A stretch of 64,000 nt of DNA, from the NCBI GenBank assembly GCA_024655945.1, contig JANLFK010000001.1, forward strand, positions 1-64,000, given 5' to 3'. Position numbers and translations under genes: made by a program. The stretch is from a candidate division KSB1 bacterium (lineage in GTDB: Bacteria > Zhuqueibacterota > Zhuqueibacteria > JANLFK01 > Oleimicrobiaceae). A model generated the notes under the pieces. The model saw only the letters and a list, made by a program, of their open reading frames with translations. It was not told where the DNA came from and searched no databases. How positions within the stretch are numbered: position 1 is the first letter of the stretch; every line of letters starts with the position of its first letter. Below are positions 41,688 to 63,243 of the stretch, one piece after another.

Positions 41688-41840
41688 GGTGGTGCTTCCT
41701 TTGGACAAAACGACCCGGGCCATGCGGTCTCAGAGTTCCGCTGCGGGGACTCAAAACAAGTGGGAGAACCGACCTTGCACCAATCCTCTTGGCATTTGCA
41801 CCCGGCGTGCACGTCGGGATGCAAGCCGTGATGAAATCGT

Positions 41841-42602: not shown

Positions 42603-42633
42603 CTCTCCCTCACACAATGGCTTGTTTGGCGTG

Positions 42634-43464: not shown

Positions 43465-43554
43465 AAGTATCTCCTCCAAGCTAACAGGCTGTCGTCGCGG
43501 GGAGCCAATCGGACCCGAAGGGGTGTTGCTCTGCTCCCCTTCCGCATACCGCTC

Positions 43555-44805
43555 TCAGTACGTCACTACCACAGGGTTGGCCAATCTTTCCACCATCTCG
43601 TCCAGGTACCTGACAAACTCCGCTTTCGTTTTGATCCCCGAGGGCTCTCCCTCCCAGGCAGCCAAGAAAGCGTAGCCCAGCCTGCCGTTCTCAGGGCGCA
43701 ATACTACCACGTGACTGTGCTCATCTTCTGCGTATTCGACAAGGTCCTTTGTTCTGAAAAGCACTGCCAACCCGAGGCTATCTCCTGCAAGGCTCTGTCT
43801 ACCGTAGGTGGCCATGAATGCCCAGTCCCCTTTGCTGCCCGAACGCAACAGTTCTGCCGAAGGGTCCTTAACGATTCCTGTGCACAGGTTGGGCGCGTCA
43901 CCAGAAATGTGCACCCGGTGGGTGGTTATGCGGCTGCCAGCCGCTATCCCGAGTTCCGACACCAGATCATAGGACTTGCCGCCTACCTTCCAGCCGAAGT
44001 ACCTGGTCCTGATGAGAGATCGCACCGGTCCGTTGAGCACAACTTCGCATGTGACGCTGTCTGTCGTGCTCACGCGCTGTGCCTTGCCATCAAGCCATAT
44101 GCCGAGAGAGCCGATGCCCAACGATTCGCCCACCTTAAGGATATCCATGCCCCAGTCGGCCATCCGGTGATAGGACTCAAATCCATCCTGGCCCACGTCT
44201 TGGAGGATCATCTTAGGGACCTTTTTCCCGAAGACATCGATCGCATTCCTCCAATCCAGATAGAAGCGGTATCCGACCAAGTCAGATTCCCAACCAGGGC
44301 CTTCGTAGCGGATGAATTCGGAATGGTCGGTGTGCTCCTGTGGTACACGCAACGAGCGCACGTTCACAAAATGGCCGCCCAGGTACTTGCGCCCGACGAA
44401 CTGTCCGCCAGTCTTGACGGAGAGCTCTGCCTGTGTTCTTTTCGCGTAGGTCCGCTCTCGGGAACCTTCTGGCGCGTACCATAGGTGCAACTCTCTCTTG
44501 CCGCTTGCCGGCAAGTCCAGCAGGGCGGTGATGTTCTCCGATTGTCCATCTCCGTCCAAATCATCCGCCTGGCTTGGCATCTCTCTTCCAGCACAGAACA
44601 CCATAAAGGCCATGGGATTGAAATCTGGGGCCTTTTCCCGGATGCGGCCGATGTCAAGAGTTAGCAGTTCGTCGCTGCGGGGGAGCGCAGTCGGGTTCTG
44701 GACCTGCAGGCCAACCGACTTCGGGTAGAGGCGTTGCAAGTCGGACCTGGCGCACGTCACACACGCCAACAAGGCTACCCCCAGCGCAATCGTCAACGAC
44801 CGCAT
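43555..44805 (-). CDS. DUF4861 secreted protein
   Basis: A 416-residue protein with a signal sequence (MRSLTIALGVALLACVTC, possibly a lipoprotein). Tryptophan- and glycine-rich beta segments follow, such as YEGPGWESDLVGYRFYLDWRNAIDVFG and YHRMADWGMDILKVGESLG. These fit DUF4861, found in polysaccharide loci of Bacteroidetes-type bacteria and often beside kduI. No catalytic activity is established to my knowledge. The calcium-loop-like DDLDGDGQSEN near residue 80 is worth noting. The ATG at 44805 follows GGAGG. It has its own candidate promoter at 44942-44970. Confidence 0.7.
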   Translation of the reverse strand: MRSLTIALGVALLACVTCARSDLQRLYPKSVGLQVQNPTALPRSDELLTLDIGRIREKAPDFNPMAFMVFCAGREMPSQADDLDGDGQSENITALLDLPASGKRELHLWYAPEGSRERTYAKRTQAELSVKTGGQFVGRKYLGGHFVNVRSLRVPQEHTDHSEFIRYEGPGWESDLVGYRFYLDWRNAIDVFGKKVPKMILQDVGQDGFESYHRMADWGMDILKVGESLGIGSLGIWLDGKAQRVSTTDSVTCEVVLNGPVRSLIRTRYFGWKVGGKSYDLVSELGIAAGSRITTHRVHISGDAPNLCTGIVKDPSAELLRSGSKGDWAFMATYGRQSLAGDSLGLAVLFRTKDLVEYAEDEHSHVVVLRPENGRLGYAFLAAWEGEPSGIKTKAEFVRYLDEMVERLANPVVVTY

Positions 44806-45154
44806 GGTTTTCCTCCCTGTATCGTAGCCCTCTCGGGACAGCCGCTTGTGACCACGGCTTCGCGTCTCCTCCGCACCGCCCACAGTTTCTTGCCCCATAG
44901 AAGGCAGCCACCCAGGCACCAGACCGTTCGGGTACTCATCAAATGTAGCAAAACTCAATTTGCCAAGCAATGGGCGGCGCTACGAGCCCAGAAGCTCAGA
45001 CAATGCCCAGCGACACCACCACCCCGCCGCAAAACCTCCTGACACCATGACTCGGCGTACTCTCCAGGGGGCGGTTTGTGCCCCTCAACCTTTTCGACAG
45101 GAAGGCACAGGAACGCGCTCCTCTTCCCGACTGCTCCCGGGCGCCAAGCCGGCT
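44806..45154 (-). other. Intergenic gap between PL9 and DUF4861 genes
   Basis: 349 bases without a supported gene. It holds the candidate promoter at 44942-44970 and a leader of about 130 bases. I see no convincing intrinsic terminator after the PL9 gene. Confidence 0.5.
44942..44970 (-). promoter_or_regulatory. Candidate promoter for the DUF4861-kduI-kduD unit
   Basis: On the - strand TTGCTT (44970-44965), 17 bases, TACATT (44947-44942). Confidence 0.4.
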
Positions 45155-47230
45155 TCACCGGAGCAAGAGAAGCCTCTGCACTCTGAGATTCTTCCCCGTG
45201 CAAAGCCGGCAAAAATAGGCCCCCTGGGGAAGGGCCCCTGTGTCCCAACTTACAGAGTACGTGCCCTGCTGGTGGGGGCCTTGCGCGAGCACGGCCACTT
45301 GCCTTCCGCTCACATCGAACACTCGCACATCCACGTAGCCTGGTGTGGCAACTTCATACCGGATGGTGGTTGAGCCGGAGAAAGGATTCGGGTAGGCCTC
45401 CACCAGGTCTAATGTTGTGGGCGCGGCGATGTCGGCGTTCACAACTCCTTGCGACGTCGACCCGACCAGAACAAGGTACATGGCCGCCGCGTCTGTGCCA
45501 TCCTTAGAATTGCGCCCGAGGTTGACCTTCTCTCCGGGCTGAGTAAGCCTGCGGAACAAGGCCAACGTCTCCTGCGAGCCCCCTGCGCCAGTGAGAGTGA
45601 TGGTCAGACCGGTAGATTCATATTCCTGCAGCCATTCAGGTTTCGCGGCAATGCGGGCCGAATGTGCCACGTGCACCTCGCATGCCTCTTCGGCAACAAA
45701 CTCGGCCAGTGTGAGCAGATAGTTTTTGGTCCGCGAACCAGGGGACGTCTGAATCCATTCCCAGACGCGCAATCCCTCGGGAACCGAGAGCACGGTTGTG
45801 GTCCCGTCGCCATACGGGTCGATGCCCTGCGCGAAATCGGAACGTACGCCCCAGTCCTGCGCGTTCTCCACATCGTAGACGAGGAGCTCCCTGATCCGTG
45901 CGCCTGAGCCGCGCTCGACAAACGGCTCATGCCACTCGCCCCCTTCGACCTCGTAGGCGCCAATGTCAGGAGCACTCCCGCAATAAGGCTGCCCAGAGAG
46001 GACCCCACGATCCACAACCGCACTACTCGGCCTTGGCCTGAGGAGCTCGACCTCTGGCAGGGAGCCGTCTCTGTGCCGCGCCGACTTTGCGAGCTGGGTG
46101 TCGATGCTGAGAAACACATCCTCATTGAGCGGCACCCCAATTTGCCAGCTGTTCCCGGCCACCACTGCAGTCGGCGGCACCGTGGCCAGCACCGAAGAAG
46201 TTACGCTGAGGTTGTTCACGAATACCGACTGACCTCGAATTGGGTCTCTTGGAAAGTAGAAGTTCCTGCCGTTGTTGTAGGCAGTGTTGTGCAGCAAGGT
46301 CAAGGCACCTGTGTTGTTGTTGTGGTCGAAGCCTTTCGACTGTCGAGCCGGGCCGAGGTTGTCGAAGGCCAGGCAGCGCACAACGACATGGTCGCCAGGC
46401 ACATAATCGCCACCCAATTTGAAGCCGTTTCCGTCCCCGCCAAAGTTCGCGGGATTCCCGAACAGCGCTGGGTCGCCATTGTGGAACGCCCAGCAGTTCT
46501 CTACGACGATCCTGTTGGCTGCGCGCCAGAAGTCAAAGCCGTCGTCTGCGTTTTCCCAGGCGCGGCATCCGTAGAAATAGTTGCCCGGGAGGATGTCAAA
46601 CTTTGCTCCGAACCCGTCTGCGTTTTCGCCTGCGGTAATCCTGTCAAAGTTCCAAAAGCTGTCGCAGTTCTTGATGAGGTTGTGGGAAGCATTTCCGGCC
46701 ATGTGAATGCCGGTGTCGCGGTTGCCGTATGCCGTCACCTGCTCCAGCTTGTTGTAGCTCCCGTCCATGCGGATGCCGTTGTGTCCGGCATAGCGCACGG
46801 TGATTCCGATGACATGCCAGTACCAACCATTGAGGCGTATGCCGTTCTGACTCCCTTCTTCTGCCTGCCCCGAGAAATCAAGCACTGGCGTCTCTCCCGG
46901 GTAGGCGACGACGGTTATTGGCTTTTCTGCCCTGCCGTGGCGGGAGATCTTGATGGTCGCATTGTGGTAATAGACCCCTCCGCGCAGCACGAACACATCG
47001 CCGGGCAGCGCCTGATTGGTGGCGTAGTCAAGCGTTGCCCAGGGTTGATCCAGCGTGCCCGGATTGCTGTTGTCCCCTTGCGGGGCGATGTAGAACACTC
47101 TGTCGCCCTCGGGAATCTCGCCCCAATACACGTGTAGCCCAGAAGGAGGCTCCTGTGCTCGGGCCACTACGAGCAGAAACAAGAAACTCAACACGACAAG
47201 CGACGGTACACGGCGATGGGAAGACTTCAT
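45155..47230 (-). CDS. PL9 pectate lyase with sorting domain
   Basis: A 691-residue secreted beta-helix enzyme. A signal peptide covers residues 1-25. The catalytic part carries what match the PL9 calcium acids: D205 in NADGFGAK and D229, D230 and D233 in ENADDGFDFW. The base lysine would be K271 in DGNGFKLGG. PL9 enzymes cleave polygalacturonate by beta-elimination, giving unsaturated ends that KduI/KduD finish. The last 85 residues begin with AYPNPFSGSTTIRYEV and end in LLLLR, a type IX-like sorting domain, so it is probably sent to the cell surface. Confidence 0.85.
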   Translation of the reverse strand: MKSSHRRVPSLVVLSFLFLLVVARAQEPPSGLHVYWGEIPEGDRVFYIAPQGDNSNPGTLDQPWATLDYATNQALPGDVFVLRGGVYYHNATIKISRHGRAEKPITVVAYPGETPVLDFSGQAEEGSQNGIRLNGWYWHVIGITVRYAGHNGIRMDGSYNKLEQVTAYGNRDTGIHMAGNASHNLIKNCDSFWNFDRITAGENADGFGAKFDILPGNYFYGCRAWENADDGFDFWRAANRIVVENCWAFHNGDPALFGNPANFGGDGNGFKLGGDYVPGDHVVVRCLAFDNLGPARQSKGFDHNNNTGALTLLHNTAYNNGRNFYFPRDPIRGQSVFVNNLSVTSSVLATVPPTAVVAGNSWQIGVPLNEDVFLSIDTQLAKSARHRDGSLPEVELLRPRPSSAVVDRGVLSGQPYCGSAPDIGAYEVEGGEWHEPFVERGSGARIRELLVYDVENAQDWGVRSDFAQGIDPYGDGTTTVLSVPEGLRVWEWIQTSPGSRTKNYLLTLAEFVAEEACEVHVAHSARIAAKPEWLQEYESTGLTITLTGAGGSQETLALFRRLTQPGEKVNLGRNSKDGTDAAAMYLVLVGSTSQGVVNADIAAPTTLDLVEAYPNPFSGSTTIRYEVATPGYVDVRVFDVSGRQVAVLAQGPHQQGTYSVSWDTGALPQGAYFCRLCTGKNLRVQRLLLLR

Positions 47231-47268
47231 CGTTCCTCAGCGCATGTTGATTTCGCAGCCAGTGGGTA

Positions 47269-47309
47269 CAAAAGTGCCCCCCTCGCTCACGCTCGCATGC
47301 GAGGGGGGC
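47269..47309 (-). terminator. Strong terminator after the large repeat protein gene
   Basis: An 11-bp perfect stem (47309-47299 with 47286-47276 on the - strand) is followed by ACTTTTG. It separates the repeat-protein gene from the PL9 gene. Confidence 0.75.
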
Positions 47310-47316
47310 CTTTGCG

Positions 47317-50300
47317 TTACTTCATCACCACCAGCTTTCGCACCTGGGTAAACGAACCTGCGCTAAGCCGGCAGTAGTACACGCCGCTGGTGACGTCCGC
47401 AGCCTTCCACACAACCGCATAGACACCCGGGCCCTGTTTGGCATTCACAAGCTGTGCCACTGTGCGTCCGCTTGCGTCGTACACCGTCAAAGTCACCTGA
47501 GCGCTCGTGGGCAACATGTAGCGAATCGTGGTTACGGGATTGAACGGGTTCGGGTAGTTTTGCAAGAGCGCAAAGTGCGTGGGTACCTCCGGTTCCCGCT
47601 CTGCCACGCCGACGCTCACCTTGAGACTGCCTCCCTCAAAGGAGATTGAACCGTTGGGACCCAGCACGAAGGGAATGGTGTTGTCGAACTCGCCCGCGAC
47701 CAGGTGCAGCACACCGTTGATCGTAGTCGCCTGCGAGAGAACCACCCCCTGGGGGTTGGCAATCGTCAAGTCGTTCACCACTGTGGGCATCGCCATGCTG
47801 GTCACCTGCTTGGTGGCTCCATTGAAAGTGTAATTGGCCGCAGTGCTCAGCGTCACCGCCTCGCCGGGCACTGTCCCCAAAAAGCCCGCCACACCATCAC
47901 CGTGCGCGGTTGCCAGCGTTGCGCCAGCATTCAAGACAAAGATGCCGTTGCCTGCCAACACGCTCTGCCCCACGTCCAACGTGGTGCCGAAGCTCACCTC
48001 GATGGGTAGGTTCAGAATGTTGTTGCCCTCGCCTAACGTCAGCTTCTGCACCCCGGCCTTTGCGAACACAAACTTGGCATTACCGGCCGTCGGGTTGGAG
48101 TTCTGCGTGGTGGCATTGGACATAGAAAAATCGCCCTCGTACAGGTACCAGGTCGTCGTGCCCGAACCATTCCCCTGGGAGCCGCGAGCAATGGAAAAGT
48201 TCCCACCGGTCACCACCACATTGCCGTAGTGGTGCACGATAAACGTCGTCAGCGCATTGCTCGTCCCCTGCACCGAGAACTGACCCGCCTCCACGACTAC
48301 GTCGCCCTTGACAGTGATGATCGAAGTGTCAGACGCCGCAGCAGTGCTCATCTGCCAGCGGTAGGCCCCTGTGTTCACCACGCGGATATCGCCACCGATG
48401 GTGATGTTATCCCAGCCCATGTCGCGGTTGCGCCCCAACTCCGGAGTGTTGAACACCACGTGATAGAAATTCTGGTTGCGATTGCCCGGTGCGTCCTGCT
48501 TCGTCCCCGTCAGCAAAAAAGTCGAACCCTCCTGCCACGTCGCCAGCGGCACACTCCCCCCATCCCGCGCGTGCTCGTAGGTGCTGCCATCGCCAAACGT
48601 CAACGAGCCGCCTGTGACCTCCACCATGCCGTTGTCCTGCACCTTGAGGTAACCGCCAATCTCCACAGGAATGTCCACCCGCACCGTGTCGGTGCCATCA
48701 ACGGTGATCTTCTCTGTGCCCCTCGGCGCACTCGGCACCGCCATCCACCGATCTACCACCAACCCCTCCCAGGTCGAGGCCTGACTCCAATCGCCCGACT
48801 TGACCGAGCGGTATTCCGTCACCACCAACGGCACCTTCAAACTGCCGCCCTCGTACGAAATCTGACCCTGCGGACCCAGCACGAAGGGAATGGTGTTGTC
48901 GAACTCGCCCGCGACCAGGCGCAGCACACCGTTGATCGTAGTCGCCTGCGAGAGAACCACCCCCTGGGGGTTGGCAATCAGCAGATTGCCCACCAGCGTC
49001 GGCATGCGCGTACTGGTCACCTGCGCCACCGTTCCGTTGAAGCCATAGCTCGAGCCCGCCGGCAACGTCACCGTGCCCGTCACATCCCGGAAAACTTCCT
49101 CAACCCCACCGGCAAGCGCCGTCACCAACGTCGCCCCCTCATTCAGCAGAAAAATGCCCGCTCCCGCCAGCCGGCTCTCCCCCATGTCCAGGCTCGTGCC
49201 ATCCCTGACCTCAATCGGCAACGCCGTCAGCGTGTTCCCTGCACCAAGCCGCAAGTGCTGCGTCCCCTGCTTGGCAAACACAAACTTTGCCCCTCCAGGG
49301 GTCTGCGTCGAACTCTGGGTGGTGGCGTTGGCCATGGCAAAGTCGCCCTCGTACAGGTACCACGTCGTTGTGCCGTTCGGCTGCGAACCCCGACTGATGG
49401 AGAAGTTACCGCCCGTCACTGCGATATTGCCGTAATGATGGACAATGAAGGTGGTGTTCGCCGTGCTCGTGCCATGCACCGCAAACGCTCCGCCCTCGAC
49501 GATGACATCCCCCAGCACGGTGATGACCGAGGTGTCACCCGCAGCAGTCGAGCTCATCTGCCAGCGGTAGGCCCCTGTGTTCACCACGCGGATATCGCCA
49601 CCGATGGTGATGTTATCCCAGCCCATGTCGCGGTTGCGCCCCAACTCCGGAGTGTTGAACACCACGTGATAGAAATTCTGGTTGCGATTGCCCGGTGCGT
49701 CCTGCTTCGTCCCCGTCAGCAAAAAAGTCGAACCCTCCTGCCACGTCGCCAGCGGCACACTCCCCCCATCCCGCGCGTGCTCGTACACTGAGCCAGCAGC
49801 GAATGCTAGCGAATCGCCCCCTGCAAAGGCGCCACGGTTGACGACTGTTCCTTCGACGACTCCTTTGGGCGCGGTGATGAGGCCAAGAGTGTCCACCCTC
49901 ATGAGGGCACCCGGCGAGACAGCAAGTTGCGACGTCCACACAGTGTCGTTGAACGACACACCCTGCGGGTTGACCACGCCCAGAAAACGTGTTGAGTCCG
50001 GGAGAAGACCGCCAGCAACCTGCGGTTCGCTGCCGTTGAAGACATACCCGGCCGCCTTGCTCAGCTCCTTGTCCCCAGAGGTGCCAATGGCCTCGTCAAG
50101 ACCTCCCGGGACAGCAGTCTGCAGGGTCGCGCCTGCGGAAAGCACGAACTTGCCATTCCCGCCCAGTCTTGAAAGGCCCATGTTCAAGGTCGCGCCGCTG
50201 TCAACCTGCACAGGCAGGCCGCCCCCGCCATAGGTGACGTTTTCCAGCACGAGATTGTGCACTCCGCCTGTCTTGGCGAAAATGAACGTTGCCCGCCATG

Positions 50301-51102
50301 GATTGGAATTCTGCGTGGTGGCATTGGACAGCGAGAAGTTGCCCTCATGCAGGTACCATTTGGTCCAGCCGGTGCCGGTCTGGCCACCCTGGCTGCCTCT
50401 GCTGATGGCAAATGTGCCTCCGGTCACCACGATGTCGCCGTACTGGTGCACCTCCACCTGCGTTGCGCTGCTCGTCCCCTGCGTCTCAAATTGACCGTTC
50501 TGTACGATCACATCGCCATGGACGGTCACGGTGCCCGAGGTGCCACCAACCAGTCGCCAGCGCCCCGAACCAGTGTTGAGGACGAGGATGTCCCCACCGA
50601 TCGTCTTCCCCGCGAGGTCGAGGTCCAAATTGCTGCTCAGTCCAGGTGTGTTCAGGACGATGTGCCAATAGTCCTGCCCTCTGTTCGCAGGGGCTGCGCT
50701 GGTAATGCCGGTAAGAAGAACCGTCGACCCTTCCCCCCAGGTAGCCTGGGGTATGCTGCCGCCATTGCGGGCATGCTCGTACTGCCCTCCACCCAGAAAC
50801 GTCAGCGAGCCGGTGGTGACTTCGACGCTCCCGGTCTCCTGCACCTTGAGGTTGCCGCGGATCTCGACCGGCACATCAATGCTCACCACGTCCGTACCCT
50901 TGACCGTGATGTTCTCCGTGCCCACTGGTGGCGCGCTTGCTGCAATCCACTGCGTTCCGTCAAAGACTTCCCACGTAGCAGTCTCGCTCCAATTTCCTGT
51001 GGTGGCAGAGCGGTAGTCTCCCACCTGCTGGGCCGTAACAAGGCCAGCAAAGGCCATCACAACAACGGCCGACAACCAAAGTGCGTACCTCCTGTTTCTC
51101 AT
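47317..51102 (-). CDS. Large secreted repeat protein with sorting domain
   Basis: A 1261-residue protein with a signal peptide ending near AQQVGDY. The header GNWSETATWEVFDGTQW recurs later as GDWSQASTWEGL and opens beta-rich units resembling G8-like surface modules. Three units of about 350-400 residues follow one another; the second lacks the header. Recurring phrases are YEHARDGGSVPLATW, TIGGDIRVVNTGAYRW and VTGGNFSISRGSQ. The C terminus (NYPNPFNPVTTIRY to RKLVVMK) is a type IX-like sorting domain. It is probably a surface adhesin or carbohydrate-binding scaffold; no enzyme motif is seen. The ATG at 51102 follows AAAGGAGG. Confidence 0.75.
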   Translation of the reverse strand: MRNRRYALWLSAVVVMAFAGLVTAQQVGDYRSATTGNWSETATWEVFDGTQWIAASAPPVGTENITVKGTDVVSIDVPVEIRGNLKVQETGSVEVTTGSLTFLGGGQYEHARNGGSIPQATWGEGSTVLLTGITSAAPANRGQDYWHIVLNTPGLSSNLDLDLAGKTIGGDILVLNTGSGRWRLVGGTSGTVTVHGDVIVQNGQFETQGTSSATQVEVHQYGDIVVTGGTFAISRGSQGGQTGTGWTKWYLHEGNFSLSNATTQNSNPWRATFIFAKTGGVHNLVLENVTYGGGGLPVQVDSGATLNMGLSRLGGNGKFVLSAGATLQTAVPGGLDEAIGTSGDKELSKAAGYVFNGSEPQVAGGLLPDSTRFLGVVNPQGVSFNDTVWTSQLAVSPGALMRVDTLGLITAPKGVVEGTVVNRGAFAGGDSLAFAAGSVYEHARDGGSVPLATWQEGSTFLLTGTKQDAPGNRNQNFYHVVFNTPELGRNRDMGWDNITIGGDIRVVNTGAYRWQMSSTAAGDTSVITVLGDVIVEGGAFAVHGTSTANTTFIVHHYGNIAVTGGNFSISRGSQPNGTTTWYLYEGDFAMANATTQSSTQTPGGAKFVFAKQGTQHLRLGAGNTLTALPIEVRDGTSLDMGESRLAGAGIFLLNEGATLVTALAGGVEEVFRDVTGTVTLPAGSSYGFNGTVAQVTSTRMPTLVGNLLIANPQGVVLSQATTINGVLRLVAGEFDNTIPFVLGPQGQISYEGGSLKVPLVVTEYRSVKSGDWSQASTWEGLVVDRWMAVPSAPRGTEKITVDGTDTVRVDIPVEIGGYLKVQDNGMVEVTGGSLTFGDGSTYEHARDGGSVPLATWQEGSTFLLTGTKQDAPGNRNQNFYHVVFNTPELGRNRDMGWDNITIGGDIRVVNTGAYRWQMSTAAASDTSIITVKGDVVVEAGQFSVQGTSNALTTFIVHHYGNVVVTGGNFSIARGSQGNGSGTTTWYLYEGDFSMSNATTQNSNPTAGNAKFVFAKAGVQKLTLGEGNNILNLPIEVSFGTTLDVGQSVLAGNGIFVLNAGATLATAHGDGVAGFLGTVPGEAVTLSTAANYTFNGATKQVTSMAMPTVVNDLTIANPQGVVLSQATTINGVLHLVAGEFDNTIPFVLGPNGSISFEGGSLKVSVGVAEREPEVPTHFALLQNYPNPFNPVTTIRYMLPTSAQVTLTVYDASGRTVAQLVNAKQGPGVYAVVWKAADVTSGVYYCRLSAGSFTQVRKLVVMK
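47657..47764 (-). repeat. 108-bp direct repeat with 48872-48979
   Basis: Matches 48872-48979 with one mismatch, offset 1215 bases (405 codons). It encodes the NPQGVVLSQATTINGVL to FDNTIPFVLGP stretch at unit ends. Confidence 0.85.
48346..48579 (-). repeat. 234-bp direct repeat, copy 1
   Basis: Identical base for base, as far as I can compare, to 49552-49785. The offset is 1206 bases (402 codons), so the repeat is in frame within the large repeat protein gene. Confidence 0.9.
49552..49785 (-). repeat. 234-bp direct repeat, copy 2
   Basis: Second copy of the repeat at 48346-48579. Flanking sequence on both sides diverges quickly. Confidence 0.9.
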
Positions 51103-51177
51103 GACGGCATCCTCCTTTGGTTGGTGCGCTTGCAATGTGCATCCCTGCACTTTCCGATGAGCCGTGGAGCCAGGGAC

Positions 51178-52737
51178 CTACCTCTGCATTAGCATCCTTC
51201 CCATCTTCACCGAGCTGCCGGCCTGCACCCGGTAGAAATAGATGCCCACCGGAAGTCCGCGTGGCTCCCACGTCAGTTCATGAATACCCGGCTGTATCTT
51301 GCCCTCCCACAGGGTGGCAACTTCTTGCCCGAGAAGATTCAATACCTTTACGCTCACCTGGCTCGCACTTGGCAGGCCAAAGCGGATCGATGTCCACCCC
51401 CGCAAGGGGTTCGGATAGTTCTGTTCGACAAAGAAGGTGCGCGGAATACTCCCTTGTCTGGAGGATACTCCCACGGCAACCTTCAGGCTTCCCCCCTCGA
51501 AGGAGATTGTGCCGGTGTGCCCCAAGGTAAAGGGGATGGTGTTGTCAAACTCGCCGGCCATCAGCCGGAGCACGCCGTTGATCGTCGTCGGTTGGGAGAG
51601 CGTCACACCGGCAGGGTTGTTGATGACCAGGTCGCCAACGACTGCGGGCATGCGGGTGCTGGTAATCTGAGGCACCGTGCCGTTGAAGCTGTAGCTCGAC
51701 CCGTCGGCCAACGTAATTGTCCCCGTGGTGCCCTGAAAGATCTCGGCGACGCCGCCTGCCAGGGCAGTTAAGAGCATGGCTCCCTCATTCAGGACAAAAA
51801 TGCCGCTTCCGCCGAGCTTGCTCTCCCCCATCTCCAGTGTCGTGCCTTTGGCAACTTCGATCGGCAGGGCCGTCAAGGTGTTGCCGGGTCCCAACGTCAA
51901 ACGTTGTACGCCATTTTTGGCGAAGACGAACTTTGCCCCGCCAGGAGTCTGGGTGGAGCTTTGCGTGGTGGCATTCGACATGGAGAAATCGCCGGCGTAC
52001 AGGTACCAGGTGGTCGTCCCTCCTGGCTGAGAACCGCGGCTGATGGAAAAGTTCCCGCCGGTGACAGTGATATTGCCATGGTGGCGAACGACAAATGTGG
52101 TCTGGGCGTTGCTGGTTCCCTGCACGGCAAATGCTCCTCCCTCCACGGTCACGTCGCCCAGCAGCGTCACGACGGCGGTGTCGGTGGCCAAAGCGGTCGT
52201 CAGATACCAGCGTGCCAGACCTGTGTTGACCACCCTGATGTTCCCCCGGATCGTCACCCCGTTAAGGTTCATATTCAGATTGGAGGCCTGCGCGGGTGTG
52301 TTGAACTCGATGTTGTAGTACCCTTGATTGCGATTCTCCGGGGCGACGGACACGGTGCCGGTCATGAGAAGCGTAGAACCGTCCTCCCAGATGATGGTCG
52401 GGATTCTACCCCCATCGCGGTCGTGCTGGTAGATGCCCCCATTGCCGACACGCAGATTGCCACCGTCGTTGACAACTCCCTGGTTCACCAGCCGCCCGGT
52501 GATGGTGACCGGCACATTCACGTAGACCGAGTCTGTGCTCCGCACGGTGATTGTCTCGCTCCCAGTGGGCGGGGTGCCTGTTGCCAACCACGTGGTGCCG
52601 TTGTAACGTTGCCACGTCTGTGCACTGCCCCAATCACCACTTGCCTTCGTGCGAAAGTCACCGACAGATTGCGCCAGCGAGGACACGCCTACTGCCGAGA
52701 GAAGCAAACAACACAGCACCAACGTGTCACGTCTCAT
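51178..52737 (-). CDS. Single-unit relative of the large repeat protein
   Basis: A 519-residue secreted protein with a signal peptide (MRRDTLVLCCLLLSAVGVSS), one header (SGDWGSAQTWQRYNGTTW), one beta-rich unit and a type IX-like C-terminal domain (NYPNPLRGWTSIRF to GRMLMQR). Phrases such as VTGGNFSISRGSQPGGTTTW and TQTPGGAKFVFAK match the middle unit of the large protein almost word for word, so the two genes arose by duplication. It lies upstream of the larger gene in the same direction. Function unknown, probably surface-exposed. The ATG at 52737 follows AGGAGG. Confidence 0.75.
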   Translation of the reverse strand: MRRDTLVLCCLLLSAVGVSSLAQSVGDFRTKASGDWGSAQTWQRYNGTTWLATGTPPTGSETITVRSTDSVYVNVPVTITGRLVNQGVVNDGGNLRVGNGGIYQHDRDGGRIPTIIWEDGSTLLMTGTVSVAPENRNQGYYNIEFNTPAQASNLNMNLNGVTIRGNIRVVNTGLARWYLTTALATDTAVVTLLGDVTVEGGAFAVQGTSNAQTTFVVRHHGNITVTGGNFSISRGSQPGGTTTWYLYAGDFSMSNATTQSSTQTPGGAKFVFAKNGVQRLTLGPGNTLTALPIEVAKGTTLEMGESKLGGSGIFVLNEGAMLLTALAGGVAEIFQGTTGTITLADGSSYSFNGTVPQITSTRMPAVVGDLVINNPAGVTLSQPTTINGVLRLMAGEFDNTIPFTLGHTGTISFEGGSLKVAVGVSSRQGSIPRTFFVEQNYPNPLRGWTSIRFGLPSASQVSVKVLNLLGQEVATLWEGKIQPGIHELTWEPRGLPVGIYFYRVQAGSSVKMGRMLMQR

Positions 52738-52837
52738 GTTATGCCTCCTCAAAAGCTTTGAGCCGAAAGAGGCGCCGTGCGCGCCAACTGCTTTGCCCGA
52801 TTTGCAACCACGTTTTCTCAGCCGGCGGTCACGCAGC

Positions 52838-54322
52838 CTATCGCCTCCACGGAATCTGGTACGCAAGCTGGCCGAGAGCAATCCAGCGACGCTCGCTGTT
52901 CTTGCTGATCGCGCTTGACCAGATGTCCTGGTATTTCATGAGCGAGTTCTCCACCGCCAAATCCACACGGAGGCCGCCGTAGATCAGGCTTGCGCCGCAC
53001 GAGTAGACCGAATAGGTGACCGGCTCACCCGGAAGCTGATTGCCTTCTGGTTCGAAGACCTCGGCCTCATTCCTCATCCCCGCGCGCACTGCCAGCCAGG
53101 GCAAGGCGCGCAGCTCGAACCCTACTCGGAATGGGGAACTCGATAGCCAGGGGGAACTCTCCTTTCCGAAGGGGTCCACGTAGCGCGCGGACTTGTAGGG
53201 GCGAAGCTCGTATTCAAAGCCTAAGATCAGCCATTCCTTCGGAGTGATCGACAGACCTGCGCTCCCTCGCCAGGGTAGCTGCAGTCGGTCCTTTCCCTCT
53301 GCGTGCAGGCCCGCCACCAGCGCGGCATTGGCGACCTCATTCAGCCCGACACTCTCTACCTCGGCCGACAATTCCCTCTTAATTTTGGCAGGAGGTCTGA
53401 CCGTCAGGCCAAGGCTGGCATGGCTGCCGGTCAATAGCCAGCTTAATGCAACTTCCTGACCCTTGAAGCGGGACGTGCCACTCTTGCGCAACCGCCACCC
53501 CACGGAATCAGCACGGAATGCGTTCGCAAAGAAGGTCAGTCTGCCCCTGCCCACATACTTCTCTTCGTCGTCGCTGCTTCCCCGTAAGAGCAGGGCGCTG
53601 ACGCCGAAGGCGGAACGCAACTTCTCCACCCGCGCCGCTAAAGCGAGCCCATAGCCCCGGATCGCACCGTTGCGCGAGCGGACGGTCTGATACCAGTCGA
53701 CGACGAGAGGATTGTCGTCGGACGGGCGCATTGTCGGCAAGGGTCGTTGGGAAAGGATGGACGGCGAAAGGACATTGTTGTGCTGGTAGAAGTGGCTGAG
53801 GTCTGCGTATTGGACCGCGCCCAATCCTGCGCAAAACTTCACTGCAGACACCTGAAAAGGCACGGCCGCAAAAAAGTGAAGCGGGTACTGGCTGCTGCTG
53901 GAACGTGACCAGTTGGGGCCAATGTCATCGTACGGCCGCTGCACCGTGTCTGCCGCGGTAAATCCCGGAAGTTCAGGGTTCGGGTCGGGGATGCGGCTGG
54001 TCAGCCCTTCCAGCAGCAAGCTGAGATTGGCATAGTACCTCACCGGGGCATAGTTTTGCTTCTGCTCCTGGTGATGCGAAAGCGCAGCCCCGCCCACCGA
54101 CACGCGCAGGCCAGCAAGGCTCGCCAGCACTGCCGGGTTGTTGAACATCGAAGCTACATCCTGGGTGGCAACTGTCACACCGCCCATCGCTCTGCTGGCC
54201 ACCGAGTGCAGCTGGCAGTGGTCTACACCCTGGAAGGTGAGCTGTCCGCCATACCCCTGCCCCAGCGCCAAGCGTGCCGTCAAAGCAAGGATCAAAGCCG
54301 GGACAAGCTTGAGTTGTTTCAT
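52838..54322 (-). CDS. Outer-membrane beta-barrel protein
   Basis: A 494-residue protein with a signal peptide (to ARLALGQ). The start SRAMGGVTVATQDVASMFNNPAVLASL is typical of the FadL/PorV-like barrels of FCB bacteria. Alternating hydrophobic strands continue to the C terminus. Its ATG overlaps the stop of the preceding PorV-like gene (ATGA), so the pair is co-translated. It may be a partner in secretion or a transport barrel; I cannot tell which. Confidence 0.7.
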   Translation of the reverse strand: MKQLKLVPALILALTARLALGQGYGGQLTFQGVDHCQLHSVASRAMGGVTVATQDVASMFNNPAVLASLAGLRVSVGGAALSHHQEQKQNYAPVRYYANLSLLLEGLTSRIPDPNPELPGFTAADTVQRPYDDIGPNWSRSSSSQYPLHFFAAVPFQVSAVKFCAGLGAVQYADLSHFYQHNNVLSPSILSQRPLPTMRPSDDNPLVVDWYQTVRSRNGAIRGYGLALAARVEKLRSAFGVSALLLRGSSDDEEKYVGRGRLTFFANAFRADSVGWRLRKSGTSRFKGQEVALSWLLTGSHASLGLTVRPPAKIKRELSAEVESVGLNEVANAALVAGLHAEGKDRLQLPWRGSAGLSITPKEWLILGFEYELRPYKSARYVDPFGKESSPWLSSSPFRVGFELRALPWLAVRAGMRNEAEVFEPEGNQLPGEPVTYSVYSCGASLIYGGLRVDLAVENSLMKYQDIWSSAISKNSERRWIALGQLAYQIPWRR

Positions 54323-55362
54323 GGCAGAATCATTCTCGCGCTAATGCGTTGCACGTTGCCCAGGTAAGTGCCCATATCGCCATAACTCCAGTCAAGTAGC
54401 AGACGGACACCTTCTGCAGCGAACTTGAAGCCTGCGCCCAAAGTCAGGCCGTCGAAGTCATAGTTGAACTTGTAACCGGCGCGCAGGGCGAGTACCCCGC
54501 GGATCTCGTACTCGCCCCCCAGGTGCACCTGTTGCTCGTAGTCATTTGGGTGGAAAATGTCCACGACCACGCCGAGCCGATGCTCTTCCTGGTTGCCCAC
54601 AAGCAAGCCATCGCGCCCGACCAGGTCGGCTGCGACTCCGAACCGGAAAAGCAGCGGAACCGGGTGCGCTTCCTTGGCGAACCTGATGTCCGCACCAAAG
54701 TTCTGCACTGCGGAGCCAAGGTGAATGGAACGGTAGCCGGTGTTGTAGCGAATCCCGAAATCGAAAAGCAGACCGTCTGCCCACGTCTTCACGTCCTCAT
54801 ACACGCCGGGCCGAACCATGGCTGTCACCTGTCGTTCGCTGAAAAGCGATTGGTAAACGAACTTCGTCCCTATTCCCACCGAAAACTTGTCCGTCAGATC
54901 ACGGCCATAAGAAAGGCCAACCACACACGCGAAAGGTCGAAAAGTCCGCCCGGTGAGCCCCGGATGCTCGGGATCGTTTATGAACGGCCGCGCATTGCTG
55001 GTCTCTTCAAATTCGCCGAAATCGACGTACTGCAGTTGCGCTCCTATGGCCCCACTGCTTCCCACCGGCGTGGCGAAGCCGAGTGCCCCCTGCTGCGCGT
55101 CGAAAAGCCAGTTCACGTAGCCGGTGAAAAACTCCGGACTCTCGACCCTCGCCACCCCGGCAGGATTCCAAAAAACTGCCTCAGAGCCAGTTGCCCACAC
55201 GGAGTAAGCTTCGCCTAAGGCAGCTCCCCGCGCCGAGGGGATGACCTTGAGAAACTGCATCGAGGTGCTGCCTACCTTCTGCGCGTAGGAGGAACCCCAC
55301 CACAAAACGGCGGCCAACAGCAAAACAAGCGTGCCGATTTTTCGCTTCGGACAGTTTCTCAT
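54319..55362 (-). CDS. PorV/PorQ-like outer-membrane protein
   Basis: A 347-residue barrel with a signal peptide ending at SSYAQ, then SMQFLKVIPSARGAALGEAYSVWATGSEAVFWNPAGVA, the PorV/UPF0164 opening. The chain ends RISARMILP. PorV is the outer-membrane shuttle of the type IX secretion system, delivering sorting-domain proteins to the attachment complex. Three such cargo genes lie just downstream and one upstream, so a link to their export is likely though not shown. Confidence 0.75.
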   Translation of the reverse strand: MRNCPKRKIGTLVLLLAAVLWWGSSYAQKVGSTSMQFLKVIPSARGAALGEAYSVWATGSEAVFWNPAGVARVESPEFFTGYVNWLFDAQQGALGFATPVGSSGAIGAQLQYVDFGEFEETSNARPFINDPEHPGLTGRTFRPFACVVGLSYGRDLTDKFSVGIGTKFVYQSLFSERQVTAMVRPGVYEDVKTWADGLLFDFGIRYNTGYRSIHLGSAVQNFGADIRFAKEAHPVPLLFRFGVAADLVGRDGLLVGNQEEHRLGVVVDIFHPNDYEQQVHLGGEYEIRGVLALRAGYKFNYDFDGLTLGAGFKFAAEGVRLLLDWSYGDMGTYLGNVQRISARMILP

Positions 55363-55381
55363 CGTCGTCTTTCCACCGAGG

Positions 55382-57598
55382 TTAGTGGATTACCACAAAC
55401 TTTCCGCTAGAGCGGTCGCCCGTGTCGAGATCTTCGACTACAAAGTAGTAGACCCCGGACGCAATCAGCTGGTTGTTGACGCTTAGTTGATACCACGGGT
55501 TGCCGAAGGTCTCCCGTTCGTGTCTGATGGTCTTCACCAGCTGCCCGGAATAGGAAAAGATGCGAATGATGCAGCGCTTCGTCAGGCCCATGAACTGGAC
55601 TCTATCGCCAATTTCACCAACGGGATCTGAGCCGCTCAGTCCGCTGGTAACGATGAGCGGATTGGGAACCACGTAGACTTTCCCCAATCGCTCCTTTGGC
55701 GGCGCCTGCGTTTCGTGCAGGGTGAGATTGGTCATCCCGCTCTTGCCGCCCAACTCATCCACGGACAGCACCGCGTAAGCGACGTTATCCCCGAGATTGC
55801 TGTACGGGTCCAAAACAGCATACTCGCCCTTTTCGAAATACCTTGGGTCCCTGATGCCCACCGAGTCGATGACCGTCCACGGCCCGAGTGGATGTGGCGC
55901 GCGTAGCACCAAGTAGTGGCTGAGCCGCGCACGGAGCCGTCGACAGTTAAATTCTTCCACCTGCGGGCCCCAGACGATTCGGTTGGCCGCTGCGTGCGTG
56001 TCTTCGACTCTTATGGCGGGAGCCGGGAAAGGAATTGGCACCGTATCGTACCTGCCCTTGGGCGCAGCCTCTTCCGGTTTGTACTGCAGCGTGTCGTACT
56101 TCACCAGCGGCCGCCCGGTGTACATCTGAATGGCCCTATCTGCGACGTCGCGGATGGAAACGACACCCGGCGTGACATACCAGGGCAGCGGGTGATTCTG
56201 CAGATAGGTGCTGCCGATGTAGTTCTTGGTGCCCAAGTAGCTGTACTGCAGCGTGTCGTACCAGCTGGGCACAGGGTTGAAGTAGAATCCCGCATCCACG
56301 CCACCCCGAACGTTGCCACCCAGGTCCTTGTACTTCCGGTCGTCGGCAACTCCGGGCCCATACCCCGCCGCTTCTGCGACGGCAAAATACATCGTCTCGT
56401 TGGGAGGAAGGAGATAGGGGTAGAAACCATAGGCTCGCGCCGCCGGCTGCCACCACGAAAGGTTTGCCGAGGTCTTGGTGCGGCCTTTCCAGTACGACCA
56501 GAGGAGTGGTTCGAATTGTGTGCAGAAGCGGGTCGAGTCCTCGGTGCCCTGCCAGATTCCCGTCTTGCGGCGCAAAGTGGGGTCCATCCATGTCGCTGTT
56601 TTCGCCTCTGGCGGAAGGTTGCCGTTCTCATAGCGGAGCAGGAAAGGTTGCTTTGCCTTGCCGTTCTCGTCCCACATGCCTGCACTGTCGCCGGTCGCCA
56701 GGAAGACCTGCTGGGTCTGGTCCCTTCGGCACAAATGCTCATAGTCATAATGCAACACCACAATGCCGACCGCCTGAGGCGAATTGAGGCCCCCGCGATT
56801 GCCGGGGGTTGACCACTCCTCGAAAAAGACCGGATCGGGAAGGCCCTCCCGCTCGTGATTGTAGCTCATCCAACGCTTGAGGTCGAAGCGGGCAAAATGG
56901 TCACCCAGGCCAGCCGGAGGTTGCCCGCGAAAGGCGCTCTCCGTCCAGCTGCCGTGGTTGCGTTGGTAGCCAAACATGGACGGGGCGAACGTGTTTGCAA
57001 AGGTGACGAACAGGTCCTTGATCGTGTCGCCCGTCACGTTCTGAAACTCGTACTCGTAGATGATGAAACTGTCGTAACCAGGCCAACTCCATGCCCGGCT
57101 TGTGCGCGTCACGCGGACGCCAACAGGAGTGTCCCAGCCAGCGATGATAATCTCCTCGGCCTCGTCGGGGTCGAATGAAGGGTTGAGCGAACCATCGCCG
57201 AGCAGCGGAAAGTTCTCGATCCTCTGGATGTCCAGGGGGATGCTGTACACCCCGACGACAGGCACTGGGTCGCCGCTGCTGTTTGATACGGCGCCGCAGA
57301 AAGCATACTTGCGCCCACCTGGTCGCGTACCGGCTATCCAAATTCCACTGCCGAAGGAGTTGTGCTGGCCAGGGTAGTTTGTCCTCTCCAGAACAATCCG
57401 GGAGTACGGGGGCCACTCCATGCAAGGCATGCCGGGCTGTATGGTGCCGCCAGCGCTGTAGGCCCGCCCCAGCTCTCCAGTATTGAAGACGGTTTGATGA
57501 AGCATACCCCGGGAGTGCACCCGCCAGTCACGCTGTTGACCGGCCGTTTGGCCGGCACCCAACAAGAGAGAAAGGATGAGCACCTGAGCGCGTTTCAT
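55382..57598 (-). CDS. Secreted protein of unknown function with C-terminal FlgD-like domain
   Basis: A 738-residue protein with a signal peptide (MKRAQVLILSLLLGAGQTAG). The body has no enzyme motif I recognise, but phrases such as VFNTGELGRAYSAGGT, GSGIWIAGTRPGG and FDPDEAEEIIIAGWDTPVG recur in large secreted proteins of FCB-type genomes. The last 90 residues (VYVVPNPLIVTSG to SGKFVVIH) look like a FlgD/type IX-type sorting domain. It lies 18 bases after the TonB receptor gene and ahead of the PorV-like gene. Confidence 0.65.
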   Translation of the reverse strand: MKRAQVLILSLLLGAGQTAGQQRDWRVHSRGMLHQTVFNTGELGRAYSAGGTIQPGMPCMEWPPYSRIVLERTNYPGQHNSFGSGIWIAGTRPGGRKYAFCGAVSNSSGDPVPVVGVYSIPLDIQRIENFPLLGDGSLNPSFDPDEAEEIIIAGWDTPVGVRVTRTSRAWSWPGYDSFIIYEYEFQNVTGDTIKDLFVTFANTFAPSMFGYQRNHGSWTESAFRGQPPAGLGDHFARFDLKRWMSYNHEREGLPDPVFFEEWSTPGNRGGLNSPQAVGIVVLHYDYEHLCRRDQTQQVFLATGDSAGMWDENGKAKQPFLLRYENGNLPPEAKTATWMDPTLRRKTGIWQGTEDSTRFCTQFEPLLWSYWKGRTKTSANLSWWQPAARAYGFYPYLLPPNETMYFAVAEAAGYGPGVADDRKYKDLGGNVRGGVDAGFYFNPVPSWYDTLQYSYLGTKNYIGSTYLQNHPLPWYVTPGVVSIRDVADRAIQMYTGRPLVKYDTLQYKPEEAAPKGRYDTVPIPFPAPAIRVEDTHAAANRIVWGPQVEEFNCRRLRARLSHYLVLRAPHPLGPWTVIDSVGIRDPRYFEKGEYAVLDPYSNLGDNVAYAVLSVDELGGKSGMTNLTLHETQAPPKERLGKVYVVPNPLIVTSGLSGSDPVGEIGDRVQFMGLTKRCIIRIFSYSGQLVKTIRHERETFGNPWYQLSVNNQLIASGVYYFVVEDLDTGDRSSGKFVVIH

Positions 57599-57616: not shown

Positions 57617-60481
57617 CTAAAAATCGAACACTACTCCGAAGTTGAACGCCCGCGGGCTGTTCTCATAGATGAGGAAAGACTGGTCTATGCTGAACGGCCC
57701 CTGCCTTCCTTTGTCCCACCAATAACGCACACCGTTTTCCTTGTCGTCGATGGGGTACTTCTCGTAGTACTGCAAAGGTAGATTTGGATTGGTCGGTGTG
57801 GGACGCCGAAACAAGTAATCGTAGTTGAGTACCCTGTTGTTGAACAAATTGAATACCTCCACGTAGAACCTGGCCGGTGCGCCAAAGAAGTTGCGTATGG
57901 TCTTGGTAAGACGTAGGTCGGTGTTGTACTCCGAGGGCGCGCGTTTCACGTTGATAAGCCTGATGTCTGCAGGCGACGTATATGGTCTGCCACTGCGGAT
58001 TGAGGAGTAGACCGAAACAGCTACATCTGCAAACGGCCGCATGTTGAGAATCGACGGCCCGCAGGTGCGGGCAGTGCTGTAGCCGATGGTGACCACCACA
58101 TTATGGGTACGGTCGAAATCAAGGAGGATATCACGCGTCGGCACGTTGGTCAGGTCAGTCGTGACCACCTTCGAGGTATCGCGATTGAATATCGGCGTCG
58201 CCGCCGTAGCTGTGGCGCTCTTGCCAGTGGCGTAACCGTACTGGTAATTGACCGAACCTGTGAGGGCACCCTTGCGCTTGTGAAGCATAATGCGAAAACC
58301 GCGGATGTCGGCATAGTCGAGGTTGAAGTAAGAGCTGACCTGGTAGCCGGCTCGCTGGTCTATGAAATTGGCCTGTTGCACCAGGTTCTTCACGTCCTTG
58401 TAGTAGCCGCTCACGTCGACGGTGAAACCTTCACCAAGGGCCTGCACCACGCCCACGTCGTAGCTGTTGGTTGTCTCGGGCTCCAGCCGCGGGTTGCCCA
58501 AGATCACCGGGTTGTTCAGCCTCTGCCCGAGTCTGCTTGAGACCATGTACTGGAAGGCGGGCCGCTGCATAAAGGCCCCGTAGTTGAGATGAAACACAGT
58601 GCTGGCCGAGACGGGAAACGAAAAGCCTAAGCGCGGTTGCAGTCGTGTGTAGGTCGGTGCCTTTTTCCTTTCCCCCTTTGCGGGGTCAAACCGTCCCAAA
58701 GAATCGGCACCCCCAAACGGCGTGTACAGGTCGGTGTAGTAGTCGATCCCGGAATGCCACAAGTCAAACCTGAGGCCCACGTTCGCTATCAGCCCTTCGA
58801 ACTCCATTTTGTCCTGCACGTAGAGGGCGGCTTCGAACGGGTGTGCCGTATAGCGCTCTACCAGTCGGTTGGAGCGCACATTGAGAAAGTTGGCGACATC
58901 CAGAAAGTACGAATTGACCTGAAAGCCACCGTTGAGAAGATGTGCTTTAGTTGTCTGACTGGTGAGCGCACCCTCAAGAGAGAGCGTCCGTGTCTTTTCC
59001 TTCGTGAATGAATCGTAGCCGAGCTGATAGTTCAACATGTCAGGGGAGTTGTTGTTGGGAAAAGAAATGGTGCCGACCACCCAGTTGAAGTCGACAGAGT
59101 CGGGGAATGTGTCGGGCACTGGCGTTGCGCCCACTCTGTTGCTGGTGAAGAGGGAGTTCAGCTTGAGTTCGTAAAAAGTGCTCTGGCTGAGCGTCTTGGT
59201 AAAACGGGCTCCGACCTGGGTGTTGGCTCTCTTGCGCAGGCGGGTGCCCGTGATCCTGTCCCACAACCAGCGCTGGTAGCCACTCACGCTGTTCGATCCC
59301 GGAAAGACGGCCTCCGAGAGGCGAGAAAGGCCACCGCTGAGGCGCAGCGTGCTGGCGCCACCGAGGTCGGCTACCAGGTTGCCCATCGCCTGGTACTCGG
59401 TGTTTGCTTGCTCCGTCGGAAAGACCGGCCATTCACGTTCGGCGCGCAGGGCCAAAAACATCCTCATCCTTTGGTTGACAGGGCCTCCACTGGCTGCTTC
59501 CACCGAGTAATCGACCTCGTTTCCATACGACCGACCCAGGTCACGCCGGCTCTGCCTCCACAGCGCCTGCGCCACCGCCAGTTGCACCAGCGTGTCGCCC
59601 GCGAAACTGTTGGTGAGCCCCGAAGCCATGGTGCCGTAGTAAGGCTGAGCGTGCTCTGCGCTGGGGTCGCCCGTGCGCCACACGTGTTCGTCCCGCAGAA
59701 GTCTGAGGTAGGCGTTCGCATTCGGGTCGTAGACGCTTGGCCCAAAGTGCTTGCGACCAGGAGCGCGGAAGCGCGACTCCACCCTCGTACGCCAAAGGTG
59801 CGAATCGCCTTCCTTCATCGAGATGTTCACGACGCCGGATTGCGCGTTCCCGTACTGGGCGCCAAAGCCACTGGTGATGACCTCGACTTCCTCTACACCG
59901 CTCATTATGGGGAGGAAAGCCGAGCTGCGGTCCAGCGGGTTGACGATTCCCAGCCCCTGCAGCAGATAGTACTCCTCCCCTTGCCGTCCACCACGGAAAT
60001 GCCCATCGACTATATCTGCCGCCAGGCCGATAACGTCGCCGATGTCCCTAATTCCTGGCAACATCTGCACCTCGTCGAAGCGGACGATCGCGCTGGTAGA
60101 GGTCTTGTCACGTTCGACGTCCGGTCGGGTCGCCTGGACCACAATCTCCCCCAGTTCCAGCACCGTTTGCGGCAGCGCAAAGTCAACCGTCGTCGTCTTG
60201 CCGGCATTCACTATGACGTCCACCACGACGGTTGGCTTGTAGCCTATCATCGACGCACGGAGAGAATAGCGCCCGGGTGCAACGTTGAGGATGTAGTATT
60301 CGCCCTTGCCGTCGGTGGCGGCTCCCATGGTGGTCCCGACGATGACCACATTGGTGCCGGGCAAAGGCCCGCCGGTGCCTGCATCCGTCACCCTGCCGGC
60401 AATCTTGCCCACGGTCTGCGCGGAAAGCGGCATGACGCACCAGAACAGTGCAAATCCCACCAGCCAGTGTCTCGCGGCCAT
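57617..60481 (-). CDS. TonB-dependent outer-membrane receptor
   Basis: A 954-residue receptor. A signal peptide to PLSAQ is followed by a carboxypeptidase-regulatory-like domain (GKIAGRVTDAGTGGPLPGTNVVIVGT), then a plug (ADIVDGHFRGGRQGEEYYLLQG) and a long beta-barrel ending in a C-terminal Phe. No SusD-like gene is beside it, so it is not a classic SusCD pair. It probably imports oligogalacturonides, or an unrelated ligand such as a cofactor. I prefer the ATG at 60481 because the GAGGTGG site touches the GTG at 60493. Confidence 0.85.
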   Translation of the reverse strand: MAARHWLVGFALFWCVMPLSAQTVGKIAGRVTDAGTGGPLPGTNVVIVGTTMGAATDGKGEYYILNVAPGRYSLRASMIGYKPTVVVDVIVNAGKTTTVDFALPQTVLELGEIVVQATRPDVERDKTSTSAIVRFDEVQMLPGIRDIGDVIGLAADIVDGHFRGGRQGEEYYLLQGLGIVNPLDRSSAFLPIMSGVEEVEVITSGFGAQYGNAQSGVVNISMKEGDSHLWRTRVESRFRAPGRKHFGPSVYDPNANAYLRLLRDEHVWRTGDPSAEHAQPYYGTMASGLTNSFAGDTLVQLAVAQALWRQSRRDLGRSYGNEVDYSVEAASGGPVNQRMRMFLALRAEREWPVFPTEQANTEYQAMGNLVADLGGASTLRLSGGLSRLSEAVFPGSNSVSGYQRWLWDRITGTRLRKRANTQVGARFTKTLSQSTFYELKLNSLFTSNRVGATPVPDTFPDSVDFNWVVGTISFPNNNSPDMLNYQLGYDSFTKEKTRTLSLEGALTSQTTKAHLLNGGFQVNSYFLDVANFLNVRSNRLVERYTAHPFEAALYVQDKMEFEGLIANVGLRFDLWHSGIDYYTDLYTPFGGADSLGRFDPAKGERKKAPTYTRLQPRLGFSFPVSASTVFHLNYGAFMQRPAFQYMVSSRLGQRLNNPVILGNPRLEPETTNSYDVGVVQALGEGFTVDVSGYYKDVKNLVQQANFIDQRAGYQVSSYFNLDYADIRGFRIMLHKRKGALTGSVNYQYGYATGKSATATAATPIFNRDTSKVVTTDLTNVPTRDILLDFDRTHNVVVTIGYSTARTCGPSILNMRPFADVAVSVYSSIRSGRPYTSPADIRLINVKRAPSEYNTDLRLTKTIRNFFGAPARFYVEVFNLFNNRVLNYDYLFRRPTPTNPNLPLQYYEKYPIDDKENGVRYWWDKGRQGPFSIDQSFLIYENSPRAFNFGVVFDF

Positions 60482-60606
60482 CAGCTTGTCCACCCACCTC
60501 GGTTAACAGGTCACTGCATTTGCTTCAGGGAGTCTGACCAACCTATTGAACACCACACTTTCCCTCGTTGGTTCCGCTTAAGCGCGTTGTTTTTGCTCAC
60601 CCGCTT

Positions 60607-61818: not shown

Positions 61819-61880
61819 CAAACTCCTCGCACTCGGAACCAGTAGATGTGACCTGTCCTGAAACGGTCCATCACCATGAT

Positions 61881-63227: not shown

Positions 63228-63243
63228 CAGTGCTGCGTCCTTC

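Follow-up and report, generated by a model that had tools for sequence, protein, structure and literature searches.

The window, a 64,000-nucleotide stretch of DNA from a candidate division KSB1 bacterium, carries a locus for pectin use. On the minus strand, a GH28-like frame is followed by PL1, GH105, a TonB-dependent receptor (TBDR), a secreted protein of 738 residues, a PorV-like and a FadL-like outer-membrane barrel, two beta-helix repeat proteins, PL9, a DUF4861 protein and KduI (Table 1). The gene calls and coordinates of the preliminary description of this DNA were correct. The GH28-like frame lies at the end of the window and matches the middle-to-later part of its family alone. The part that follows the pectin enzymes (32605-44970) holds KduI and, downstream of it, a short-chain dehydrogenase that is perhaps KduD, a TRAP transporter, UxaC and UxaE, as well as a 6PGD-like dehydrogenase and a LarA-like protein.

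Table 1. Features of the pectin locus, in order along the minus strand. Cut-offs of the models for type A C-terminal domains (CTDs) are 27 bits (PF18962) and 23 bits (TIGR04183).
Feature	Coordinates	Strand	Evidence and remarks
Pectate lyase (PL1 in the preliminary description)	61881..63296	-	Pectate lyase 9buj, 262.9 bits; no Pfam family at E 1e-5; no sorting CTD found
GH105/GH88-type unsaturated uronyl hydrolase	60607..61926	-	PF07470 369.8 bits; no sorting CTD found
TonB-dependent receptor (TBDR)	57617..60493	-	Cassette gene 1; N-terminal carboxypeptidase-regulatory-like domain; CarboxypepD_reg 72.4 bits, OMP_b-brl_3 52.8 bits
738-aa secreted surface protein	55382..57598	-	Signal peptide, sandwich-like N domain, fibronectin-III-like domain, PorZ/PorU-like CTD
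CTD of the 738-aa protein (class T738)	55385..55681	-	99.6 bits against profile A1, whose 22 rows include this tail
PorV/PorQ-family outer-membrane barrel	54319..55362	-	NF033709 202.3 bits (cut-off 90)
Second, FadL-like outer-membrane barrel	52838..54322	-	Toluene_X 20.4 bits (under 29.7); BamG family 32.1 bits (under 250)
Secreted beta-helix protein, type A CTD, ~519 aa	51178..52737	-	Listed as a 567-aa frame, 51178-52881; PF18962 27.7 bits, TIGR04183 34.4 bits
Longer repeat protein (1277-aa frame), type A CTD	47317..51150	-	PF18962 32.1 bits, TIGR04183 43.8 bits
PL9 pectate lyase, type A CTD	45155..47230	-	Pectate lyase 1ru4, 253 bits; PF18962 34.3 bits, TIGR04183 38.2 bits
KduI and DUF4861 protein, later pectin-use steps	42634..44970	-	NF002091 415.6 bits; PF16153 337.9 bits

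The presence of type IX cargo in the locus, suggested previously, is borne out by PL9 and both repeat proteins, whose type A CTDs score over the cut-offs of PF18962 and TIGR04183. Four proteins had been credited with sorting domains of this kind; these three keep theirs as type A, and the tail of the 738-residue protein falls in a separate class, called T738 here. PL1 and GH105 had been described as lacking a sorting domain, in agreement with our searches. The two repeat proteins belong to the same family, with stretches that are 44-65% identical. Judging from the sequence, the true starts of the long repeat frames are probably further downstream than listed, near position 52737 for the 567-residue protein. 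A model of the beta-helix protein (pLDDT 79.3) shows numerous short strands of the kind seen in a beta-helix, and an Ig-like CTD. Foldseek returned no match for it at E<=0.001; a second fold comparison listed, at Z 8.6-13.1, autotransporter passengers, phage tailspikes and Ig-like matches to the CTD. Both repeat proteins (47317-52737) are kept in relatives of the pectin locus.

The 738-residue protein matched no Pfam family at E<=0.001, and neither PF18962 nor TIGR04183 was listed for it at that threshold. The type B tail model TIGR04131 was likewise unlisted in an NCBIfam search at E<=0.001, in a library whose holding of that model is unconfirmed. Residues 631-737 of the protein gave a weak match to the end of PorZ (23.7 bits; cut-off 260). 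In an AlphaFold model of moderate confidence (mean pLDDT 64.1), the N-terminal part was most like the sandwich domain of dextran dextrinase 9ju0 (Z 19.3 over 258 residues, 3.4 A) and also like the sandwich domains of GH116 and GH94 enzymes (Z about 14-18); Foldseek TM-scores were low (query TM 0.25 or less). In our reading the protein is probably glycan-binding; fold likeness alone shows neither function nor binding.

Profile searches with T738 tails found 25 of them in the genome over 80 bits, followed by a gap to 56, 47 and 37 bits. To build the profile, tails were gathered from 35 stretches selected mainly for their PorV-family genes, and the search profile itself contains 22 of the 25 as rows; the whole-genome search added one from outside these stretches (C4:74935), with no PorV gene near. 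None of the 25 coincides with any of the 85 type A (PF18962) matches in the genome. The two classes are distant relatives (hhalign probability 97.2), and two of ten other T738 proteins matched TIGR04183 at E<=0.01, under its cut-off. A signal-peptide-like hydrophobic stretch, identified by a crude measure, lies near the start of 22 of the 23 T738 proteins with enough sequence, the frame of the remaining one being cut by the end of the available sequence.

That the two barrels form a coupled outer-membrane pair, one of them PorV-like, was recognized earlier and stands: their genes (54319-55362 and 52838-54322) overlap by 4 nt, and the first belongs to the PorV/PorQ family (Table 1). Its scores against the equivalog models for PorV (NF033710, 70.8 bits; cut-off 250) and PorQ (NF033711, 91.2 bits; cut-off 220) rule it out as canonical PorV or PorQ. 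Four cassette barrels that we scanned elsewhere are, like that of the window, members of the PorV/PorQ family far under both equivalog cut-offs. Further PorV copies, for which a search had been suggested, do exist: the genome contains 37 PorV-family matches, of which 28 are over the cut-off. Among genes elsewhere in the genome, one comes close to the PorV threshold over nearly its full length (C13:72820-73791, 238.8 bits against 250), and another approaches that of PorQ (198 against 220 bits).

The distribution of these barrels follows one class of CTD. A PorV-family match lies directly 3' of 21 of the 25 T738 genes, 'directly' meaning within 400 nt on the same strand, as opposed to only one of the 85 type A genes (odds ratio 441, p 1.4e-17), a linkage that is flattered because the profile tails came from stretches chosen round PorV genes. 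The single type A exception is a PorU-like protein. All 21 barrel partners are among the 23 best of the 37 PorV-family matches. Of the four unpaired T738 genes, the first is a tandem duplicate inside a cassette, the second follows a second TBDR, the third lies 7 kb off, and the fourth has no PorV-family match in its vicinity. A TBDR stands directly 5' in 17 of the 21 pairs, which gives at least 17 copies of a TBDR-T738-PorV cassette. In the other four pairs, one T738 frame runs up to the limit of the sequence, one is the later member of a tandem in which the earlier member comes after a TBDR, one is separated from its TBDR by an intervening gene, and one is a short broken frame for which no TBDR was found. 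Thus the PorV-like barrel of the pectin locus is paired with the 738-residue protein and not with the lyase set, and the TBDR at 57617-60493 belongs to the same unit. The proposal that this barrel serves lyase and scaffolds as one dedicated display set is not supported here, since its pairing with the 738-residue protein recurs beside TBDRs throughout the genome. As PorV for all four cargo proteins it was likewise rejected, on account of the different CTD class of its partner and the genome-wide linkage with T738. Among ten neighbours of other cassettes that were scanned, we found one GH16 enzyme with malectin, one CBM9-like protein, one laminin-G-like protein and one solute-binding ABC component; the other six showed no such link.

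The PorV-like barrels might simply be generic importers of the FadL type, with which the neighbouring genes merely co-travel, and have no type IX role here. The family does fall in the FadL superfamily, TbuX and TodX being among the PDB matches of a profile (A2) whose first row is the barrel at 54319-55362, and a FadL-like gene follows it in the pectin locus. However, PorV (6h3i) was by far the best match of that profile (E 1.4e-35, the next 3e-7), and the barrels associate with one CTD class and not with the 85 type A matches. We consider a generic importer improbable.

We favour a reading, to which we give a probability of about 0.55, in which every such PorV/PorQ-like barrel carries and anchors one surface protein as its private partner, and this protein serves the adjoining TBDR, an arrangement resembling SusCD built from type IX parts. 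It draws on the T738 tail itself, which resembles the CTDs of PorZ and PorU rather than those of ordinary cargo, by sequence comparisons that are weak in bits. Among all PDB chains, the T738 profile matched PorZ (E 2.3e-5, 27.6 bits) and PorU (E 0.0081, 19.4 bits); the remaining matches at E<=1 were two unrelated chains (0.27 and 0.36); ordinary cargo CTDs were absent at that threshold. A control profile of 20 type A tails from the same genome had FlgD as its best match, and the type IX chains that it matched were 8glj, PorU, 8glk and the gingipain and mirolase CTDs, with PorZ at E 0.18 only. The PorZ or PorU model was also matched C-terminally by nine of ten other T738 proteins, all far under the cut-off. 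Retention of the tail on the protein would fit the report in PMC11285876 that the CTDs of PorZ, PorU and PorA are not removed and that processed Porphyromonas gingivalis CTDs are shorter: from the PNP motif to the end, T738 tails have a median length of 95 residues against 83 for type A, with overlapping ranges. The same source describes the mirolase CTD, a cleaved form, as having PorZ and PorU as its nearest structural relatives. Consequently, resemblance to PorZ and PorU is by itself no proof of retention, and this report led us to lower our confidence in the private-anchor reading from 0.6 to 0.55. In the C-terminal strand, 19 of 24 T738 tails have a lysine, three an arginine and two a threonine; in a cryo-EM structure presented in PMC10994853, the C-terminal lysine bonds PorV.

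The mirolase case also lends itself to the opposite view, that the PorV-like barrel is only a transient shuttle. It would take the 738-residue protein from SprA to the attachment complex of PorU, hand it over there for removal of the CTD, and be reused, like PorV in its known cycle. PorV is known to carry type A CTDs (PMC12618676), to which T738 is distantly related, and PorU is encoded in the genome. A recycled carrier, though, needs no private copy for each cargo, yet there are 21 pairs, and PMC12618676 sets PorV, in excess or recycled, against the stoichiometric shuttles of type B proteins. The greater length of T738 tails, with the overlap given above, and the match of their profile to PorZ and PorU instead of ordinary cargo speak against the shuttle as well. 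We regard it as unlikely, if still the most serious competitor of a private carrier and anchor.

The cassette is not peculiar to this genome. The T738 CTD was found at E<=1e-18 in 68 of the 69 phylum genomes searched (at least 80% complete). In 24 genomes, our own and 23 relatives, there were 6-31 T738 tails each at E<=1e-15 and 11-37 PorV-family genes at E<=1e-20, the two counts being correlated (r 0.93). We sampled 59 regions of the relatives from the top-scoring matches, giving 66 rows that represent 65 distinct tails, one having been seen twice. A PorV-family gene lay directly 3' of 55 of the 65, was absent from that place in nine and was cut off by a contig end in one. Three of the nine are inner members of tandem runs that end in PorV, one has the barrel gene at 502 nt, and none was found for five. 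A TBDR lay directly 5' of 47 of the 65 tails; another 13 were cut or had too little sequence, and five were without one. The pectin cassette itself is conserved: the order TBDR, 738-residue protein, PorV-like barrel, FadL-like barrel and beta-helix protein is kept in five genomes (L115, L116, L117, L119 and L120) and partly in a sixth (L118). In these five, the orthologues of the 738-residue protein are 72-79% identical and the syntenic FadL-like barrel, which is present in part in L118, 50-57%. A PL9-like match follows downstream of the cassette in four of the five; the sequence of L117 ends before that point. A search with the PorV-like protein as single query gave six named relatives, three from candidate division KSB1, two labelled 'bacterium' and one 'Ignavibacteriales'.

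The frequent company of a TBDR allows another scenario, in which the TBDR itself exports the CTD protein and passes it to the PorV-like barrel; Oar is such an exporter for the Myxococcus protease PopC. Besides the position of the TBDR directly 5' of most pairs and of most relatives' tails, the stronger partial co-variation is consistent with this: over 58 triplets, PorV had a partial r of 0.55 with the TBDR and 0.29 with the CTD. Co-variation was considered as a proof of contact between CTD and PorV and discarded as indecisive; because the cassette is inherited en bloc, which dominates the signal, it does not single out this pairing. Against export by the TBDR stand the presence of an SprA gene, the type IX character of the CTD, and the degradative enzymes and solute-binding proteins at these loci, which suit import. 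There seems to be little room for this scenario.

The preliminary description linked its reading of the CTDs to the type IX core genes, in the absence of which these domains would serve another system. This absence does not hold for the translocon and the sortase. The SprA/Sov translocon of the genome scores 891.4 bits for the whole frame (cut-off 200), and the PorU sortase 890.6 bits (cut-off 420; C1:416010-419285). Motor and ring components went unrecognized, a point that, like the co-variation described above, weighs against a simple form of the private-anchor reading: GldL and GldM gave zero matches in the genome and GldN none in 68 genomes, in searches where no positive control matched either. 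These misses are no proof of absence, and the three proteins may be either very divergent or replaced. The contrast of clear SprA and PorU with unrecognized Gld proteins was noted in the genome (C5:73521-79742, L054) and, as regards GldN, in the phylum. Two PorU-like C25 proteases of ~1600 residues (L047:9284-15170 and L054:13687-19539) are each directly followed by a PorV2-like barrel gene, scoring 113 and 97 bits against a cut-off of 325. Given these two beside the full PorU, the bacterium may have several sortase complexes. SusD (PF07980) gave zero matches in the genome, in a search where a Bacteroides control matched.

With these components, import at the pectin locus would most likely proceed as follows. 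The 738-residue protein would pass through the outer membrane via SprA, the type IX translocon, and its PorZ/PorU-like CTD would be recognized by its own PorV/PorQ-like barrel. The sortase would leave the CTD in place, and the barrel would remain as the membrane anchor. The anchored protein, probably glycan-binding, would thereby be held beside the TBDR, as SusD is on SusC. As ordinary type A cargo, PL9 and both beta-helix proteins would be exported by the general PorV/PorU route, to cleave or bind pectin outside the cell, and its breakdown would be completed by PL1, GH105 and the catabolic genes.

Extended to the whole phylum, the idea becomes more tentative, and we judge it somewhat less likely than not. 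Its members would possess SusD-free glycan importers, each composed of a TBDR and a type IX-exported protein whose uncleaved CTD is plugged into a private PorV/PorQ-type barrel, with no lipid anchor. This could be a second, independently assembled SusCD solution, for which the PorV family would have multiplied into about 20 specific carrier-anchors per genome. Most knowledge of how type IX cargo is sorted comes from a few Bacteroidota, whose type A cargo reportedly shares one PorV. Genomes with 11-37 PorV-family genes, many of them in fixed association with one CTD class and a TBDR, make a natural data set for studying cleavage versus retention of CTDs and the specificity of their carriers. 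They also suggest how KSB1-type bacteria might import large glycans without SusD, and would let annotators distinguish genuine PorV and PorQ among the many barrels labelled 'PorV/PorQ family'. In the open-access literature searched, we met no description of a PorV family that is multiplied and paired with both a distinct CTD class and a TBDR, and a word search of the main texts of KSB1 genome papers found mention of neither SusD nor TonB.

Several known systems share parts of this arrangement. In the SprA-PorV-substrate complex, PorV loops bind the CTDs (PMC10994853). SprA and the PorV family are present here too, but the family has many members per genome, and GldL, GldM and GldN went unrecognized by searches in which no positive control matched. 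In Flavobacterium johnsoniae, as presented in PMC12618676 and PMC9143113, proteins with type B CTDs have cognate PorP/SprF shuttles encoded by linked genes, the specificity of the pair setting the final location, whereas type A CTDs are reported to share one common PorV. The barrel genes described here are similarly linked to cargo genes; both the CTD class and the barrel family are different. As in the SusC-SusD systems of Bacteroidota, a TBDR adjoins the gene of a surface protein in a polysaccharide-use locus. Unlike in those systems, no PF07980 SusD was found in the genome, the TBDR is far under the SusC/RagA cut-off (56.7 bits against 368.25), and a barrel, not a lipid, would hold the partner. 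The attachment complex of P. gingivalis resembles the proposed KSB1 pairs in that a barrel of the PorV/PorQ family holds a surface protein whose CTD stays uncleaved. The reported pairs in that complex are PorZ with PorQ and PorU with PorV, and the cognate barrel may protect the CTD from cleavage (PMC10202324). The scanned KSB1 barrels differ from these in lying far under the PorV and PorQ cut-offs, and in place of PorZ-PorQ and PorU-PorV a single genome here encodes 21 pairs, mostly beside a TBDR.
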